Part shown: positions 40,352 through 46,705 of the stretch, piece by piece
Layout: each line of letters begins with the position of its first letter
Position numbering within the stretch: the stretch's first letter is position 1
NCBI GenBank assembly: GCA_015296085.1
Contig: DVDT01000002.1
Coordinates: 1 to 46,979, forward strand
Origin: Trichormus sp. M33_DOE_039
GTDB lineage: Bacteria > Cyanobacteriota > Cyanobacteriia > Cyanobacteriales > Nostocaceae
Reading direction: 5' to 3'
DNA: 46,979 nucleotides
The notes under the pieces: model-generated
Database searches by the model: none
What the model was told of the DNA's origin: nothing
Seen by the model: only the letters and a program-made list of their open reading frames with translations
Translations under genes and position numbers: made by a program

Positions 40352-43249
40352 CTAAAAAGTTTTATACCAAGCTTGATAAAACTCTTGGTAGCTCATATTT
40401 TCTGCACAGTACCAAATTAGTTTATAAGCATCACAATATAAGTGTGAATTCTGTTCTTGTGCTGTATCAGAAAAATATTCCTTTAAAAAAACAATCACTT
40501 TTGGTAATTGTTCATAAAGAATAGTTACTTTAATATTATCTGCTGTACGTTTTCGTAAATGCTTATTGTGAGTTGATTTGAGCAGCATTAATAAAGTTGT
40601 CAATGCCATGTCATTACCCGGATCAACCTGTGCTAATTTATAAGCTCTACGTCGTTGAATATCTTCATCATCAACCGATGTAATACCTCTAATTAATGCT
40701 GTAATGGTTGTTGCTGAAGCTGGAGAGATTGTTTGCAATCTTGGTAGCTTTTTACTTCCTGGTTTAGCTGTAATTTCCCCACGACGTAAAACAATTAAAT
40801 TTTCTTGAGCTTGTTGTCGTTGTGATTTATCTAGAGCTGATGTAGCTATTGTTTCTAATGTCGAAATCGCGATCGCATTACTACTATCCAATTTTCCCAA
40901 TGAATAAGCTGCTTTACGGCATGTAGCTTCGTTTTTGCTAGATTCTATCACTTGTACTAAAGCAGCGATCGCAATAGCATTACCAGGATCTACTCTACCC
41001 AAACTATAGGCGGCTTGCCACCGAATAGATTCATGACGCACGGTTTTAACTAAATTTTCTAGTGTAGCGATCGCAATTTGATTACCTGGGTCAAAAGTTT
41101 TACCCAAACTGTAAGCAGCATTCCAACTATCAAACTCATTTTCGCATGATTGAATAAATTGCTCCAAGGCTGCGATCGCTTTTACCCGATCAGTTTTGAG
41201 TAGTGCGACTCTAGCACCTTCTACAATTGGTGGCGGATATCTGCACCACTTTTGTTTTTGCAGATCAAAATAACCAAAACGCCACTTAATTAATTTTTGA
41301 ATAATACTATCAGCATTTTGATAATCTCCAAACTCTGCTATGCTTTCTGCTGATAAAAAGTAAGCTTGATAATTATAAAATCCCCCACATTGATCATTAA
41401 AATTAATCAAAGCTTCGATAAATGTTGTTTTATCTATTTGTGCTATGTCATTCCTACCCAACCACAATAAAATTACTTCTCTCCATTGTGGTTCAAAAAT
41501 TCGGCAGTTATTTGTTTCAATACTTTCAAGCCGAGAATTTAAGAAAAAACTCCAATTTGTAACAGCTTGAGATGCAAAATATTCCTGAAAAGTTGGATGG
41601 TAAAACGCATAAACTCTTTCATTTAAACTATCGGAAATGCCAACTTGATTTAGCCAGCCCAATTGCAACGCTAATTGAAATAATCCATCATCAGGATTAC
41701 CCAATACTTGACATACAAAACTATGTTGCAAACGAAATTTTGTTTTTTCTTGGATGATAGCTAGTAATGCCAACTCTCCTAAGGCTTGATTTAACTGCTT
41801 TCTCTGGTTTAAATTGGTAGGAAATCTGTCTTGCTTCCATTCATAAATTGCCTCTACAAATTGCTTATATAAGCTAGCTTTTGTTGTAGGTAAACTGCCT
41901 TGTCCTAATCCCCAAATACGACATAGTAACGCTAACCTTAAAGGATTTTTGACCGCATCTCTAATCCTTCTTCGCCCAGATTGAGCTAATTCAAAGCGCA
42001 GTTTTTCCCCTATAGTTGCATCTGCACGAAACCAACGTTGAATAAATTGCCCTACCCGGTCTGGTGTTTGACTATCACCATAGGTAAAATGCAGATTGCA
42101 ATAGGTGTCAAAATTCTCTAAAACATTTTTTCCCGCATCCCAGACATTTCGCCGACAAGTTAAAATTACTGTGGCATCTGCTACCCAACCTCTGAGATAA
42201 CTGGCAATTTTTGCTAAAGCCAGAGTAGATGCGATCGCCATCTCATCCACCGCATCTAGTAATAGCCATACTCTTCCTTCATTAAACTGGTGGCAAAATT
42301 CTTCCTCTACCTCTGGAGAAACACGTAGCTTGCGAGTAGCAGCAGGTAGCCAATCTTGAATTAAATACTGTTGTAAACTTTTACCTTGTAAATCTGCTAA
42401 AGAAATCCAAATTGGTAAATCAGTAGTATTATTTAATATCCAAGTAGCAATTTTTTGCAGTAGAGTAGTTTTACCTGCCCCTGGTTCGCCGATAATAGCA
42501 ATTCGTTTGCTCTGTTTTGCTTGTATTATCTGCTGTATAAATTCATCATGGTCAAAAGTTTGAGTGACTTCCGTATCGTCTGGTTCATATAAACGAGAAC
42601 CATTTTGAGGGGTGACATCATCACGATAACGCGATCGCTGTTTTTGTTCGACCAATCCCAAGGAAACGTAAACTTGATTTAATTCAAAACTCAATCCATC
42701 AGCGATTGTTAAAGGATTGGTTGTCAGGCGTTGAATATTGTTGACTTCTAAATCAGCACGACAAATTTGTTGCCAATTTATAAGTGAAGAAGATTTTTCT
42801 ACATTTGTTTGTTGTGTAGGTGCTACTTGCTGCGCCTTTTCTGAACGACTAATTTCCCATTCCTGATCAAATTGTTGCAAGTTTGCTGCCATGTCTTGGC
42901 GTTTATGCCACAAATTAAGGGTAAAGTGCCAAGTTTCTGAACCACTGCGAGAGGGACGATTATCTTCTAAAATCTCCAAAAAATCAGCAAACCGCTTGAG
43001 AGATTCCTTAATTTGTTCTGCATTTAGTTGAATATCCCCAGGAATCAATGTTGTTAGTGCTTGGAGAAATCTGACTTTTGTTCTGACAACCAGTCGATAT
43101 TCACTTTGCCAACGAGTTTGAATATGAGGACGCAAAGCGTCTAAAGCCGACTCATCGCAGTCGATTACATCATTAGCATAAGCCAACAGCAACCCTAATA
43201 AGTGCCGCGATCGCTTTTTTGCTTCTGGGCCATAACTCGGTCTTGCCAT
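40352..43249 (-). CDS. NACHT NTPase with HEAT-like repeats
   Basis: 965 residues from the ATG at 43249. The N-terminal helical domain (about 1-140, MARPSYGPEAKKRSRHLL) is of a type found on cyanobacterial NACHT proteins. A NACHT STAND ATPase follows (about 235-560): Walker A GEPGAGKTT near 254-262, Walker B VWLLLDAVDE near 328-336 and a sensor segment TVILTCRRNVWDA. The C-terminal half (about 640-960) contains short repeats of the PBS-lyase HEAT type, e.g. AAYSLGKTFDPGNQIAIATL and AAYSLGRVDPGNAIAIAAL, which usually bind a ligand or partner. Such STAND proteins act as switches in signalling or phage defence. It is divergent from the vWA/RNA operon; linkage is only by position. A TTG at 43273 would add eight residues and is not preferred. 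Confidence 0.85.
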   Translation of the reverse strand: MARPSYGPEAKKRSRHLLGLLLAYANDVIDCDESALDALRPHIQTRWQSEYRLVVRTKVRFLQALTTLIPGDIQLNAEQIKESLKRFADFLEILEDNRPSRSGSETWHFTLNLWHKRQDMAANLQQFDQEWEISRSEKAQQVAPTQQTNVEKSSSLINWQQICRADLEVNNIQRLTTNPLTIADGLSFELNQVYVSLGLVEQKQRSRYRDDVTPQNGSRLYEPDDTEVTQTFDHDEFIQQIIQAKQSKRIAIIGEPGAGKTTLLQKIATWILNNTTDLPIWISLADLQGKSLQQYLIQDWLPAATRKLRVSPEVEEEFCHQFNEGRVWLLLDAVDEMAIASTLALAKIASYLRGWVADATVILTCRRNVWDAGKNVLENFDTYCNLHFTYGDSQTPDRVGQFIQRWFRADATIGEKLRFELAQSGRRRIRDAVKNPLRLALLCRIWGLGQGSLPTTKASLYKQFVEAIYEWKQDRFPTNLNQRKQLNQALGELALLAIIQEKTKFRLQHSFVCQVLGNPDDGLFQLALQLGWLNQVGISDSLNERVYAFYHPTFQEYFASQAVTNWSFFLNSRLESIETNNCRIFEPQWREVILLWLGRNDIAQIDKTTFIEALINFNDQCGGFYNYQAYFLSAESIAEFGDYQNADSIIQKLIKWRFGYFDLQKQKWCRYPPPIVEGARVALLKTDRVKAIAALEQFIQSCENEFDSWNAAYSLGKTFDPGNQIAIATLENLVKTVRHESIRWQAAYSLGRVDPGNAIAIAALVQVIESSKNEATCRKAAYSLGKLDSSNAIAISTLETIATSALDKSQRQQAQENLIVLRRGEITAKPGSKKLPRLQTISPASATTITALIRGITSVDDEDIQRRRAYKLAQVDPGNDMALTTLLMLLKSTHNKHLRKRTADNIKVTILYEQLPKVIVFLKEYFSDTAQEQNSHLYCDAYKLIWYCAENMSYQEFYQAWYKTF

Positions 43250-43299
43250 CGCTTTTGTCGCTGAAATCAACAAAGTTCGGGGAATCCCTTAAGTTTAGA

Positions 43300-43374
43300 A
43301 ACTTCCCCTGGTCTGAATATCCTGACTTGACAAGCTTTTGCAACGATAAGGCCTTGATTCGCTTCGGGGAAGTT
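43300..43374. repeat. Inverted repeat between the NACHT gene and the RNA operon
   Basis: AACTTCCCC (43300-43308) and GGGGAAGTT (43366-43374) are perfect 9-base inverted repeats 57 bases apart, flanking TTTTGCAACGATAAGGCC. A third related CGGGGAATCCC is at 43278-43288. The element lies in the promoter region of both divergent units; it may be a small mobile repeat or an operator pair. Confidence 0.45.
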
Positions 43375-43477
43375 CCTTCGCATATCCTGAATTTATAGAC
43401 AAAGCCAACTCCAGCATACAAATAAAAACCTCCATCTATAAATCAGCACTCGCCCAAAATATTACTAAAAACTGATT

Positions 43478-43846
43478 ATGTTAAAACTAACTTACACAGA
43501 AAATAGCTTTCACCTAGAGCATCTCAACGAATCTTTGCCAGATTGGGTAAGTAAAAGAGTGATCTTAGCTCTGTATTCTGCTACAACACTTCATATTGAA
43601 CCCACCACAGCTGCATTTTTGATTCCTAACGACTCATCTCTCATCGCTGATTTAGAACAGCTATCTCAAGAAAATATCTTAGAAATTTACCCTTGTGATG
43701 CGTCTTCAGCCGAAGTTATTCTTAAAGGTACTTGGCTAGCATCAGATTTAGAAAGCGCAACAGGAATTTTTGTGACAACATTAAGCCAATCGGCTGAATT
43801 ATTGTTACAACGTCTCTCTAAAACTCAGCAATTTTGTTACGTCTAA
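43478..43846 (+). CDS. Hypothetical 122-residue protein
   Basis: A small soluble protein that I do not recognise. It has a compact alpha/beta-like pattern (LPDWVSKRVILALYSATTLH, then SLIADLEQLSQENILEIYP) and a single Cys near the middle (YPCDASS) and one near the end. No signal or membrane segment. It is the first gene of the plus-strand unit that continues through the two structured RNA elements to the vWA gene; the ATG lacks a clear ribosome site. Its stop is only 20 bases before the first RNA element, so it may be the operon's first component. Its function is unknown. Confidence 0.6.
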   Translation: MLKLTYTENSFHLEHLNESLPDWVSKRVILALYSATTLHIEPTTAAFLIPNDSSLIADLEQLSQENILEIYPCDASSAEVILKGTWLASDLESATGIFVTTLSQSAELLLQRLSKTQQFCYV

Positions 43847-43866
43847 CTGTCTGCCCTAATCAGTCT

Positions 43867-43951
43867 TGCTGTTCGCGGGACTATGGTACAACTTCCGAAC
43901 CCAGTCTTTACCACTGTCATAGCTAGTTGTGCCACCTTTCCCCGAACAGCA
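43867..43951 (+). ncRNA. Structured RNA element 1, Y-RNA-like
   Basis: An 85-nt element. TGCTGTTCG (43867-43875) pairs with CGAACAGCA (43943-43951) over 9 bp; next, C43876 is left unpaired on the 5' strand and GGGA (43877-43880) pairs with TCCC (43939-43942). After a small internal loop, TGGTACAACT (43884-43893) pairs with AGTTGTGCCA (43925-43934), including one U-G. In the apical loop CAGT (43902-43905) and ACTG (43913-43916) close a 7-nt loop. A single bulged C above a terminal helix is the feature that Ro60 recognises in Y RNAs. The vWA (Ro60-like) gene follows. No promoter or end was verified; it might instead be a cis-acting leader element. Confidence 0.6.
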
Positions 43952-43984
43952 CCCCCTTCAAAATATTGACAAAATTTTCAGTCT

Positions 43985-44069
43985 TGCTGTTTGCGGGACT
44001 TTAGTACAACTTCCGTTCCAACCTGTTAAGTTGTCTAACCTAGTTGTACTGTTTTCTGCCCAAACAGCA
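43985..44069 (+). ncRNA. Structured RNA element 2, Y-RNA-like
   Basis: A second 85-nt element, 33 bases after the first. TGCTGTTTG (43985-43993) pairs with CAAACAGCA (44061-44069); C43994 is bulged, and GG (43995-43996) pairs with CC (44059-44060). AGTACAACT (44003-44011) pairs perfectly with AGTTGTACT (44042-44050), and CAAC (44019-44022) with GTTG (44030-44033) around a 7-nt loop. Versus copy 1, C-G became U-A in the outer helix, and G-C became A-U and U-G became U-A in the inner helix, all preserving pairs. The element ends 21 bases before the vWA ATG. Both copies start after the same CAGTCT, so they are duplicates with constrained structure. Confidence 0.6.
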
Positions 44070-44090
44070 TCCTCATAAATTTTTATTGTT

Positions 44091-45521
44091 ATGACTACTA
44101 ACCGTTCCGACCAAGTTGCACAAGAAGATTTGGTCATGTTTATCAATGCTTGCCTTGCTTGCACAGGACAACGTGAATTTTATGATGATGCTTACGGTCA
44201 AAGAGTATCAATTGATTTTTTACATGACTATATTCTCGGTAATTACCGCTTACTATATGCCCGTTCCTTAGCCGCAGGTATCAATCATTTTAATCAAGCC
44301 CAAATCATCCTGAAACTACTGGCAACAGGGAAAGACACACTTCCAGAACATCGAGAAGAGGAAGGCGCACTGATTGCCCATACACTCAACACCCTACCAC
44401 CCCAGAGAGCTTGGGGAGTTTTGCAGCAACTACGCCAAAGAAAAATTAACAATCGTCGTAGTAGAGCGATCGCACGAGATTATTTAAGTATGCGGCGTGA
44501 TATTAGTTTTGATGCGGTGAAATATCGTGCTAAAGTACGAGCGATCGCCACCCACGCCCACTTAAAATTACAAGGTGAACTAAGTAATTTCTTATTCCGT
44601 AACTGGCAACAAAAAGTTTATACCACCGAGTTATTTGAAAACTTTCGCCAAGCACATTACAGTGCCGAAGCCGTTTATAAATTACCGTTCACAGTCGCCG
44701 AAGGTTTAGCAACTAAACATAAAATTCCCCGTGATGTTTTTTTATCCCGTATTCAAGAGCAAATGACCTTGGGTGAAAAGTTGCGTTTTCAAGGTGCAGC
44801 AGAACGGAGTGAGAAAGTAGATATAGATGTAGATTTAGGTCGTCTTCCTCTTACCAAACTAGCGTTATATATCCTTTCCTTTCCTTGGGAAACACGAAAA
44901 CAACAACAAGTAATTTTAACCCTAGCTTTAGAGCGATCATCACAATTCACGTTAAAAAAAGCACCTTTAAAACTAGGAAAAGTTGCCGCAGTTTTGGATT
45001 GCAGCTACTCCAGTTCCGGTTCTAGTGAAAAACGTCGCCGTCCCTTGGGTATAGCCTTAGCTACACATTACTTCCTCAAAGCAGCCTCACAAGAATATCG
45101 CGCCTTCTGGACAGTACCCACACCAGAACCATTACTAGTACGTCCCTATGGACAAACTGATTTAGCTACACCATTACTAAACGCCTTAGCATCCGATGCA
45201 GACTTAGTAGTGATTATTTCTGACGGTTGTGAAAATGACCCACCCAATGGTGCGGCACAAGTGCTGCAAATTTATCGCACCAAATTAGACCCCCAAAAAC
45301 GAACTTCTATCATTCACTGCAACCCCGTATTTAATGCTGAAGACTTTTCATTACAAAATCTCAGCCCCAGCATTCCCACTGTCGGACTCAGAGATGCAGA
45401 AGATTTACCCACCATGCTGGGCTTTGCCCGATTTGCTGATGGTTCTGCACCTTTATCAGAACTAGAAGACTATTTAGCCTCCAAAGTGCAACAGATGTTA
45501 AGCAATTCCATCAGGGTCTAG
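44091..45521 (+). CDS. vWA protein with helical N-terminus, Ro60/TROVE-like
   Basis: 476 residues. Residues about 1-290 are almost all helical (e.g. FLHDYILGNYRLLYARSLAAG, LPPQRAWGVLQQLRQRKINN). Residues about 295-476 form a von Willebrand A domain with an intact MIDAS: D303-x-S305-x-S307 (VLDCSYSSSG), T356 (GQTDLATPLL) and D378 (IISDGCEN). Helical domain then C-terminal vWA with MIDAS is the layout of Ro60/Rsr, which bind Y RNAs and misfolded RNAs. Direct TROVE sequence similarity is weak by eye, so the family is inferred from layout and the RNA elements just upstream. ATG at 44091; the downstream gene starts 2 bases after its stop, so they are coupled. Confidence 0.8.
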   Translation: MTTNRSDQVAQEDLVMFINACLACTGQREFYDDAYGQRVSIDFLHDYILGNYRLLYARSLAAGINHFNQAQIILKLLATGKDTLPEHREEEGALIAHTLNTLPPQRAWGVLQQLRQRKINNRRSRAIARDYLSMRRDISFDAVKYRAKVRAIATHAHLKLQGELSNFLFRNWQQKVYTTELFENFRQAHYSAEAVYKLPFTVAEGLATKHKIPRDVFLSRIQEQMTLGEKLRFQGAAERSEKVDIDVDLGRLPLTKLALYILSFPWETRKQQQVILTLALERSSQFTLKKAPLKLGKVAAVLDCSYSSSGSSEKRRRPLGIALATHYFLKAASQEYRAFWTVPTPEPLLVRPYGQTDLATPLLNALASDADLVVIISDGCENDPPNGAAQVLQIYRTKLDPQKRTSIIHCNPVFNAEDFSLQNLSPSIPTVGLRDAEDLPTMLGFARFADGSAPLSELEDYLASKVQQMLSNSIRV

Positions 45522-45523
45522 AT

Positions 45524-46705
45524 ATGGCACAAAAGAAAAGATTATTAGCAGATATATCTCTGAAAGGATTAGACATTGCCCCTTCACAAGTAAGAGGTGC
45601 AGTCCGCATTGTGCCACTTATCCGGCGGAACATACGCGGTGATTTGCGCTTAAACCGTCGTTCCTGTGAAGAAGATATAACAATCGTCAATTTAGAAGGG
45701 AAATTTACAGACCCAAGCACAAAATATTTTTCCTATGTTCCCCACGGCTTAGTTATGTCGTGGACTGATGACGGTAGTCCCGTCGCCAGCTTTGGTGGAC
45801 AGATACTCAAACCCGATGGACAACATCAAGAATATGGTTGTGTCAGCGTTCGTTTAATGCACCGCATGGCTAAACGAGAATCAGCTAACCAACTGAGATT
45901 TTTGCCTTTACACCTAGCAATGGAAGGTTTTTTATCACTATTTTTCTCTGGGCCGACAATTGCTTGGCGTGAGTATTCTAAATATGCCCTCTCTCATGGT
46001 TTGGGTTCGCGCCACGAAACTGCTGTGAGTTACATAGCTGGTTTGGAAGATGCCTTACGTGTGTTTGAAATTCACGAACAACAAGTTGGGGTGTTAGTTT
46101 TTGTTGCCGAATCATTAGCATCAGCTTTTGTAGTTCCCACCCCAGAAGACTACCGTGCCTTGCATACCAGCCTTTTAGAAGACTTTTATGGAGAATTGAT
46201 TTACCAGTACAGCTTGCTGTATGACACAACTTGGCCGATGGAAACCACTGTAGATGAGTCCAATATTAATAGTTTGGCAGATTTGAGAGGAGCGATCGCT
46301 AAAATACGACAAGACTGGGCATCGTTCCAAGGCTTCATGGCAGAGGGATTATTACAACGCCAACTAAATTCTCAGATAGTTTATACTGCTGGTTCTTTTC
46401 TACTGCAAAGGTTCATCACCGACTTACAACCCAAACACGAAAACTATATTGGTGAAGCAATCATCCGCGAATCAGGGGAACTGGAATATCTCAAAACTTA
46501 CCGCCTATCAGAAGCACAAACTCGCCGAGCCTACCTACTGAGCAAATTAGCCGAACACAACTGGAATATCGTAGCAACCGCTAAAGCACTCTCTCAAACT
46601 AGTGAGGACTTCATTGCTCGAATAGAAGCGGCTGGTTTTGGATACCTACTCAATCAATCTGTGCGTGAAGCTGCACTCAAAAAAACTAAAAAGTCCCGGA
46701 TATAA
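45524..46705 (+). CDS. vWA-partner protein with C-terminal Fis-like helix-turn-helix
   Basis: 393 residues, not assigned to a family with certainty. Residues about 25-110 look beta-rich (AVRIVPLIRRNIRGDLRL, then DDGSPVASFGGQILKPDG); about 120-330 are mainly helical (LRFLPLHLAMEGFLSLFFSG, then VVPTPEDYRALHTSLLEDF). The end (about 335-376; YLLSKLAEHNWNIVATAKAL, then FIARIEAAGFGYLL) resembles the Fis/NtrC DNA-binding helix-turn-helix. The beta-rich start is faintly like the ARPP-1 domain, a guess only. It starts 2 bases after the vWA stop, so both proteins are made together and likely act together; it may also regulate the operon. A highly basic tail (KKTKKSRI) closes it. Confidence 0.7.
   Translation: MAQKKRLLADISLKGLDIAPSQVRGAVRIVPLIRRNIRGDLRLNRRSCEEDITIVNLEGKFTDPSTKYFSYVPHGLVMSWTDDGSPVASFGGQILKPDGQHQEYGCVSVRLMHRMAKRESANQLRFLPLHLAMEGFLSLFFSGPTIAWREYSKYALSHGLGSRHETAVSYIAGLEDALRVFEIHEQQVGVLVFVAESLASAFVVPTPEDYRALHTSLLEDFYGELIYQYSLLYDTTWPMETTVDESNINSLADLRGAIAKIRQDWASFQGFMAEGLLQRQLNSQIVYTAGSFLLQRFITDLQPKHENYIGEAIIRESGELEYLKTYRLSEAQTRRAYLLSKLAEHNWNIVATAKALSQTSEDFIARIEAAGFGYLLNQSVREAALKKTKKSRI

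Follow-up and report, generated by a model that had tools for sequence, protein, structure and literature searches.

A small structured RNA and a hidden relative of Ro60, found together in cyanobacteria and myxobacteria, most likely work as a Y-RNA-like RNA-protein particle, judging from sequence comparison and predicted structure. The window analysed here, a stretch of 46,979 nucleotides from contig DVDT01000002.1 of Trichormus sp. M33_DOE_039, carries on its plus strand an alr0857-family gene of 122 aa (43478..43846; NCBIfam NF045647, E 6.3e-42), two Y-RNA-like elements of 85 nt (copy 1, 43867..43951; copy 2, 43985..44069), a gene for a Ro60-like vWA protein of 476 aa (44091..45521) and an ARPP-2 gene of 393 aa (45524..46705; Pfam PF22549, E 6.2e-114). 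The alr0857-family gene is a neighbour of the RNA in many Nostocales and lies outside the conserved core; its namesake, alr0857 of Anabaena 7120, is reported to be 8.5-fold up in a trcR deletion (PMC10272220, available text), and positions 43273-44091 of the window contain no TrcR site, either exact or with one mismatch. Divergent to this gene on the minus strand is a gene for a 973-aa NTPase with a P-loop (40352-43273), whose weak PADLOC matches all fall within residues 245-297.

The minimum-energy fold of 43850-44090 has an energy of -71.3 kcal/mol, compared with a mean of -41.3 (sd 4.0) for shuffled sequences (z -7.45), and none of 200 shuffles folds equally well. It yields two 85-nt elements largely as a preliminary description had drawn them. 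In each, a 9-bp end helix and a lone C bulging from the 5' strand are followed by a short GGG(A) helix and an inner helix, and a 4-bp stem closed by a 7-nt loop forms the apex. In copy 1, the end helix pairs 43867-43875 with 43943-43951, the bulged C is at 43876, GGGA/UCCC occupies 43877-43880/43939-43942, the inner helix 43884-43893/43925-43934, and the hairpin 43902-43916 has the loop CUUUACC; in copy 2, the end helix pairs 43985-43993 with 44061-44069, the bulged C is at 43994, and the hairpin 44019-44033 has the loop CUGUUAA. In copy 2, the short GGGA/UCCC helix is broken by a G-G mismatch, so that only GG pairs there, and the single-sequence fold draws the base of this copy in a slightly shifted register around the mismatch. 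Differences between the copies that had been said to keep pairing can be read from the sequence as C-G to U-A in the outer helix and as G-C to A-U and U-G to U-A in the inner helix. The covariance model R1 matches copy 1 at 43864-43953 (E 3.2e-21) and copy 2 at 43982-44071 (E 2.1e-16); these are its only two matches in the 7.0-Mb genome (next best E = 0.11), and neither a DNA search nor the covariance-model search of that genome found a further convincing copy. Rfam has no match in the window at the gathering threshold, Y_RNA and YrlA (RF02553) included, nor in a permissive scan of 43830-44100 at E<=10, and across 20 related loci its sole matches at gathering are five tRNAs, in L180 and L224. 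Each 85-nt element holds a single apical hairpin and lacks the YrlA-type tRNA-like module of D, T and acceptor arms; its sole resemblance to tRNA is the anticodon-like apical loop.

A search with the window's two copies only (E<0.1) of the 700 nt 5' of each related vWA gene finds the RNA upstream of 117 of the 121 genes with usable upstream DNA; four of the 125 tblastn-positive loci were omitted because the match stopped short of the gene start or there was no upstream DNA. The four loci without the RNA are L010, L056 and L092, which are the unlinked cases considered below (two of these, L010 and L092, represent a single species), and L089, in which 323 nt upstream were covered and whose genome carries the RNA at a distance of 148 nt from a contig end. 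The search collected 146 elements with 101 distinct cores; the loci overlap in species (e.g. L012/L057, L010/L092), so that locus counts are not independent lineage counts. Homologues lacking covariation were one outcome that the preliminary description took as refuting it, and covariation is strong: on an alignment of 48 representatives (A1; two truncated elements were removed from 50), RNAalifold draws 23 pairs, 17 of them with two-sided changes. With one added A-U pair, the resulting 24 pairs have 95.0% of cells paired (78.6% in shuffles), 199 two-sided cells (51.3 in shuffles) and a score of 0.553 for covariation, shuffles giving 0.223 and slid structures at most 0.156; the number of pairs with two-sided compensation, 17 of 24 against 14.0, separates less well, 3 of 500 shuffles being as high. 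Covariation is seen in all three helices. Helix 1 has 13 pairs and, on its 5' strand, a single unpaired base, the end stem with a bulge that characterizes Y RNAs, in which Ro60 binding requires the bulged C; the bulge column is C in 40 of the 48 representatives and U in eight, the segments GGGACU and UUCCG are invariant, and A1 shows no variable stretch of the guide type.

The vWA protein consists of a helical N-terminal part and a C-terminal vWA-type domain, in which D303, S305, S307 and D378 are invariant and T356 is conserved in at least 90% of 43 sequences; DxSxS, T and D together make up the vWA metal-site (MIDAS) motif, which is present in full. At E<=1 the protein has no match to TROVE (PF05731), which by Pfam leaves it outside the TROVE/Rsr family, and none in NCBIfam, PHROGs or PADLOC; its Pfam vWA_Ro60 match is below the cut-off (E 0.13), a sequence search matched no Ro60 chains, and profile-profile comparison with canonical cyanobacterial Rsr gave a probability of 3.4%, not a significant relation. 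The preliminary claim of a Ro60-like gene is supported by the predicted fold: the AlphaFold2 model (pLDDT 85.8, pTM 0.82) matched 11 PDB chains at E<=1e-3 in Foldseek, all 11 of them Ro60, Rsr or TROVE entries (best 3.2e-7), among them Ro60-RNA complexes and the Rsr of D. radiodurans. Full-length Ro60 and Rsr give query-normalised TM-scores of 0.47-0.54 (7-9.5 A rmsd), and phage and TROVE-domain entries give 0.33-0.35, moderate values that point to agreement in the general Ro60 fold, with rearrangement.

ARPP-2 is a frequent third component of the system that is not obligatory nearby. The third gene of the window passes the Pfam cut-off for ARPP-2 with 380 bits against 27, and a homologue is present in 109 of 123 loci of this class of vWA gene (class 1); among the other 14, ten have 1.5-4 kb of downstream DNA lacking ARPP-2 and four end near the vWA gene. 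The structure model of ARPP-2 was poor (pLDDT 56) and was not used for a fold search, and an HTH_8-like C-terminus, matched by Pfam in just one of three sequences (E 0.021), is not claimed.

A search of a genome collection gave 76 loci from the best 80 matches, the record titles including Cyanobacteria, Myxococcus, Corallococcus, Archangium, Pyxidicoccus, a Polyangiaceae MAG, a Planctomycetota MAG, Limnoglobus (also Planctomycetota) and Candidatus Parabeggiatoa. The RNA and protein had previously been set in a cyanobacterial operon; cyanobacteria do carry the system, but so do myxobacteria and a few other records. A protein search of 198 relatives found some match in 55, and R1 at E<=0.01 matched 49. 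One of the latter, in G121 (E 9.4e-4, no class 1 gene), was taken as chance with 198 genomes searched and dropped from the counts; the remaining 48 coincide without exception with the 48 genomes that carry a class 1 gene (at least 62% identity), a count that takes in G035, G164 and G193, whose gene is truncated or fragmented, and leaves out a 26-residue remnant in G094. In the order of Archangium, the RNA and the protein each occur in 47 of 145 genomes, the identical set, and the RNA is present in 18 of 18 further genomes picked for carrying the protein. This co-occurrence includes linkage and shared ancestry, so a Fisher value for it cannot be read as counting independent events. Canonical TROVE Rsr, found in 69 of the 198 relatives, is a poorer predictor of the RNA (37 TROVE genomes are without the RNA and 16 RNA genomes without TROVE); the association is weaker but positive, with TROVE in 32 of 48 RNA genomes and 37 of 150 others (odds ratio 6.1). 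Three Nostoc plasmids carry the protein, and two of four plasmid matches in PLSDB are conjugative. On one of these, the conjugative plasmid pNe_3 of Nostoc edaphicum (L287), the RNA (2866-2955), the vWA gene and the ARPP-2 gene are flanked by transposase genes, and an insertion of xisH and xisI separates the vWA gene from the ARPP-2 gene. A 9.0-Mb record titled Comamonas sp. KCTC 72670 (L107) groups with the order of Archangium, and its title is probably wrong.

We consider it probable that the two elements are paralogous genes for trans-acting small RNAs to which the Ro60-like protein would bind through the bulged end helix, forming a Y-RNA-like particle; this judgement is a joint one for the whole reading, including the effector and ARPP-2 steps that follow. 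Each element would be transcribed as a separate small RNA; the vWA protein would bind the end helix with its bulged pyrimidine; the apical hairpin would be the effector end, tethering or excluding substrates or partners; and ARPP-2, where present, may act with the particle on RNA or RNA ends, in quality control or repair. The computed data beneath this reading are a covarying fold, strict co-occurrence with the protein, persistence of the RNA where it is unlinked, the Ro60-like predicted fold and the linkage to ARPP-2. Weighing against it, the relation to Ro60 rests on a predicted fold, and the co-occurrence of adjacent genes is partly linkage. The identification of the elements as Y RNAs in the preliminary description is supported by covariation, by the non-mobile character of the copies and by the predicted fold of the protein.

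The apical loop admits a more specific reading. Among 78 distinct elements with a 7-nt loop (38 of the 146 elements failed the hairpin criterion and were omitted, and related sequences are non-independent), U stands at loop position 2 in 75 and at position 4 in 72, G at position 3 in 44, and A at position 6 in 64 and at position 7 in 62. The loops of 31 of the 78 are identical to tRNA anticodon loops of the window genome, compared with a mean of 0.67 (maximum 5) in shuffles; counted as distinct loops, six of 29 are identical, compared with a mean of 0.22 (maximum 2) when letters are shuffled within loops. The loop of copy 2, CUGUUAA, equals the anticodon loop of the genome's own tRNA with anticodon GUU, and the loop of copy 1 matches none. 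tRNA-guanine transglycosylase recognises U33-G34-U35. YrlA has been proposed as a competitive inhibitor of anticodon nuclease (PMC7790460, available text). The RNA might mimic a tRNA anticodon arm (C-U-N-U-N-A-A), the Ro60-like particle and ARPP-2 serving as a bait or sensor for anticodon-loop nucleases or modification that captures or repairs damaged RNA; we hold this to be speculative and rather unlikely, and if true it would amount to an RNP for the surveillance of tRNA damage, separate from the YrlA/RtcB systems.

The preliminary description had left open whether the elements are Y RNAs or autoregulatory leaders. As a cis-acting leader, the RNA would be part of the 5' UTR of the vWA mRNA, through which the protein or another ligand would bring about self-regulation. 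The RNA is usually near the gene and co-oriented with it (the median distance between the RNA end and the start of the protein match is 56 nt in 117 loci, and in the window the vWA ATG at 44091 is 21 nt past copy 2), and 46 of the 47 RNA-bearing genomes in the order of Archangium have a single RNA; in the myxobacterial loci, where the RNA is just upstream of the gene, a leader role is compatible with the arrangement. Elsewhere the RNA does not keep to the 5' UTR of a regulated gene. In Nostoc sp. 106C and T09, R1 has no match in 9 kb around the vWA-ARPP-2 pair, and one intact RNA is found elsewhere in each genome (E 9.7e-23 and 9.3e-21, respectively), adjoining an alr0857-family gene (68-69% identity) in a fetched stretch from which a vWA homologue is absent; the two cases are probably one event, because these strains share the new neighbourhood of the vWA gene. 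In three further lineages (Iningainema, Cyanomargarita and Scytonematopsis), the RNA is followed first by the alr0857-family gene and then by the vWA gene; G164 has a solitary extra RNA with no vWA homologue within the surrounding 9 kb; and loci carry from one to three copies. Because the RNA is retained at sites from which the protein gene is gone or is separated by another gene, it is probably more than a leader, arrangements of this kind being hard to reconcile with a leader alone. On account of the same unlinked and gene-separated cases, the trans-acting Y-like RNA is favoured, on this genomic evidence, as the probable one of the two options, and we consider a leader unlikely.

Distinctly unlikely, in our estimation, is that the RNA is a sensor of a defence or conflict system composed of vWA protein and ARPP-2, in which the Ro60 fold would be reused for something other than RNA quality control. 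ARPP proteins were defined in ARG-centred conflict systems (ARPP-1 and ARPP-2, for ARG and Rhodanese-Phosphatase associated), where they occur with ARG, phosphatases, HIRAN, WYL and a deacetylase, and some of which include a protein with a vWA domain that is interpreted as a peptide-binding chaperone (PMC9503650, available text). The third gene of the window is likewise ARPP-2 by Pfam, the distribution among relatives is patchy (48 of 198) with occurrence on plasmids, and the P-loop NTPase gene with weak PADLOC matches is divergently adjacent. Against such a sensor, the vWA protein and ARPP-2 are without a PADLOC match at E<=1, and the RNA is under strong structural constraint, with no segment in A1 that varies as a guide would. 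The ARPP conflict systems also differ from the window system in what is described of them: 'Ro60' and 'TROVE' appear 0 times in the main text of PMC9503650 as available, and a linkage to RNA is not described there.

That the RNA belongs to the alr0857-family transcript, as an unrelated cis element or a processing site in its 3' UTR structure, and adjoins the vWA gene by chance, is already disfavoured and very improbable. Copy 1 does start 20 nt past the alr0857-family stop codon, and the RNA remains with an alr0857-family gene in the unlinked Nostoc genomes; but that gene is present in the fetched flanks (1.5-4 kb) of only 44 of 123 vWA loci, none of the 44 listed for a non-cyanobacterial record, compared with the RNA in 117 of 121, and a strong RNA match without a vWA gene occurs in none of the 48 genomes. 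A mobile or repetitive element (REP/MITE-like), for which the tandem copies, the protein on Nostoc plasmids and the transposase genes flanking the RNA on the one plasmid examined might speak, is scarcely credible for an RNA that covaries in all three helices, is tied to one protein class and numbers two copies in its own genome and one to three in each relative, and genome-wide copies unrelated to vWA genes, the pattern that the preliminary description had associated with a mobile repeat, did not appear.

The Y-RNA-like particle proposed for class 1 has relatives on the protein side. A sister class in cyanobacteria (L181-L187) is homologous to class 1 along the full chain (hhalign E 2.6e-19), and its partner in the loci scanned, L055 and L185, is ARPP-1. 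An RNA ligase gene is upstream in three of the seven sister-class loci (PF09414 with a PHA02142 OB domain; L182:3004-3993, L186:2963-3952, L181:422-1411): L182 and L186 have it intact, with Pfam confirmation, and L181/L055 has it interrupted; the other four have no RNA ligase homologue within their 1.5-kb flanks. In distant relatives on an Alkaliphilus plasmid (L179) and in an uncultured phage (L180), the vWA gene likewise precedes an ARPP-1 gene. From these sequence relationships, the putative pairing of Ro60-like and ARPP proteins is a wider theme, found partly beside RNA repair genes. Near the sister class and canonical Rsr genes (L181-L187 and L221-L224), the only trace of an R1-type RNA is a 10-bit partial match (L181, E 2.2); six of eight sister-class genomes are without the RNA, and the other two carry class 1 too.

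R1 has no match on L179 or L180, and no RNA was found upstream in L180. The Alkaliphilus plasmid has a larger RNA candidate (L179:3393-3572) upstream of its Ro60-like and ARPP-1 pair, with an end helix of 9-11 bp, an inner helix UAUGCGAU/AUCGCAUA, the UUCCGA segment, and a tip enlarged to several hairpins. A descriptor written by hand picks up a layout of this kind in L179 but also occasional matches elsewhere (L178, the minus strands of L095 and L179, and a second place in L112), so the candidate is only a lead. The GC-rich viral contig L178, the sole match to the RNA-core pattern among viral contigs, is unsupported by R1, and of 12 stretches in viral contigs that fit a pattern in an A2 profile search, none was confirmed.

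The Trichormus genome also encodes a separate canonical Rsr (L221, G000:C74:24000-29500; TROVE E 7.5e-17, vWA_Ro60 E 9.1e-38); therefore, the window system is an additional, divergent Ro60-like system beside the canonical one. By eye and by fold, the canonical Rsr gene is preceded by tandem RNAs resembling tRNA bodies with an inserted stem, as are those of L222-L224. Rfam has no match at gathering to these RNAs in L221-L223, and in L224 it calls two of them tRNA (E 5e-9 and 1e-7), with a sub-threshold YrlA match (E 3.2e-4). TrcR, a repressor responding to translational stress, protects TGTAGTAT at the trn promoter (PMC10272220, available text), and the exact TGTAGTAT is found upstream of all four of these Rsr loci (L221-L224) and of four of the seven sister-class genes (L183, L184, L185, L187), against a background of seven sites in 343,861 nt. 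This distribution of sites suggests that the canonical Rsr and sister-class systems may join rtcB in a TrcR-type regulon. For class 1, with an exact site in two of 85 upstream regions, approximately the background, control by TrcR through TGTAGTAT is unsupported. The same genome has a dense array of tRNA genes, some low-scoring (G000:C108:85363-87744), that resembles the 26-gene trn operon of Anabaena 7120 (PMC10272220, available text).

Like the bacterial Rsr/Y RNA systems (DrY of D. radiodurans, YrlA and YrlB of Salmonella, and RYPER), the window system joins a protein of Ro60-like predicted fold to adjoining small RNAs whose ends are paired in a long stem; unlike Rsr/YrlA, it has no TROVE Pfam match, no Rfam YrlA or Y match and no D or T arms, and has ARPP-2 as its usual partner. 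In YrlA, a long basal stem tethers Rsr and a tRNA-like domain binds PNPase (PMC8394870, available text), whereas the window RNA has the stem and bulge and no tRNA body. The rsr-yrlBA-rtcBA arrangement links Rsr to RNA repair genes (PMC7790460, available text); here, the corresponding link is the RNA ligase in three of seven sister-class loci. The vertebrate Ro60 site is described as a 7-bp helix with a single bulged C across from a bulge of 3 nt (PMC4726728, available text). The window RNA shares with vertebrate Y RNAs an end helix with a single bulged C on the 5' strand, followed by a short helix and an internal loop, and differs from them in that the bulge of its family may be U (8/48), in the invariant GGGACU and UUCCG, and in having no Rfam Y_RNA match. 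Rfam and PADLOC have no entry covering the system of RNA, vWA protein and ARPP-2, and in the open-licence literature we recognised no description of the RNA or of the Ro60-ARPP-2 pair, which does not establish their absence from print.

Functional studies of bacterial Rsr and Y RNAs cover few organisms, D. radiodurans being the only one named in the available text of PMC7790460. The system described here would add a second, sequence-divergent Ro60-like branch, with its own RNA family and ARPP-2 as a frequent partner, in cyanobacteria and myxobacteria, and its carriers include named strains of culture collections; Chlorogloeopsis fritschii PCC 6912 (L062) and a Myxococcus xanthus strain (L123) are culturable examples. 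It gives a concrete context to the uncharacterised ARPP-2 family, and a short Y-like RNA without a tRNA body, conserved across phyla, would separate what Ro60 needs of the stem from what effector domains have added to it.
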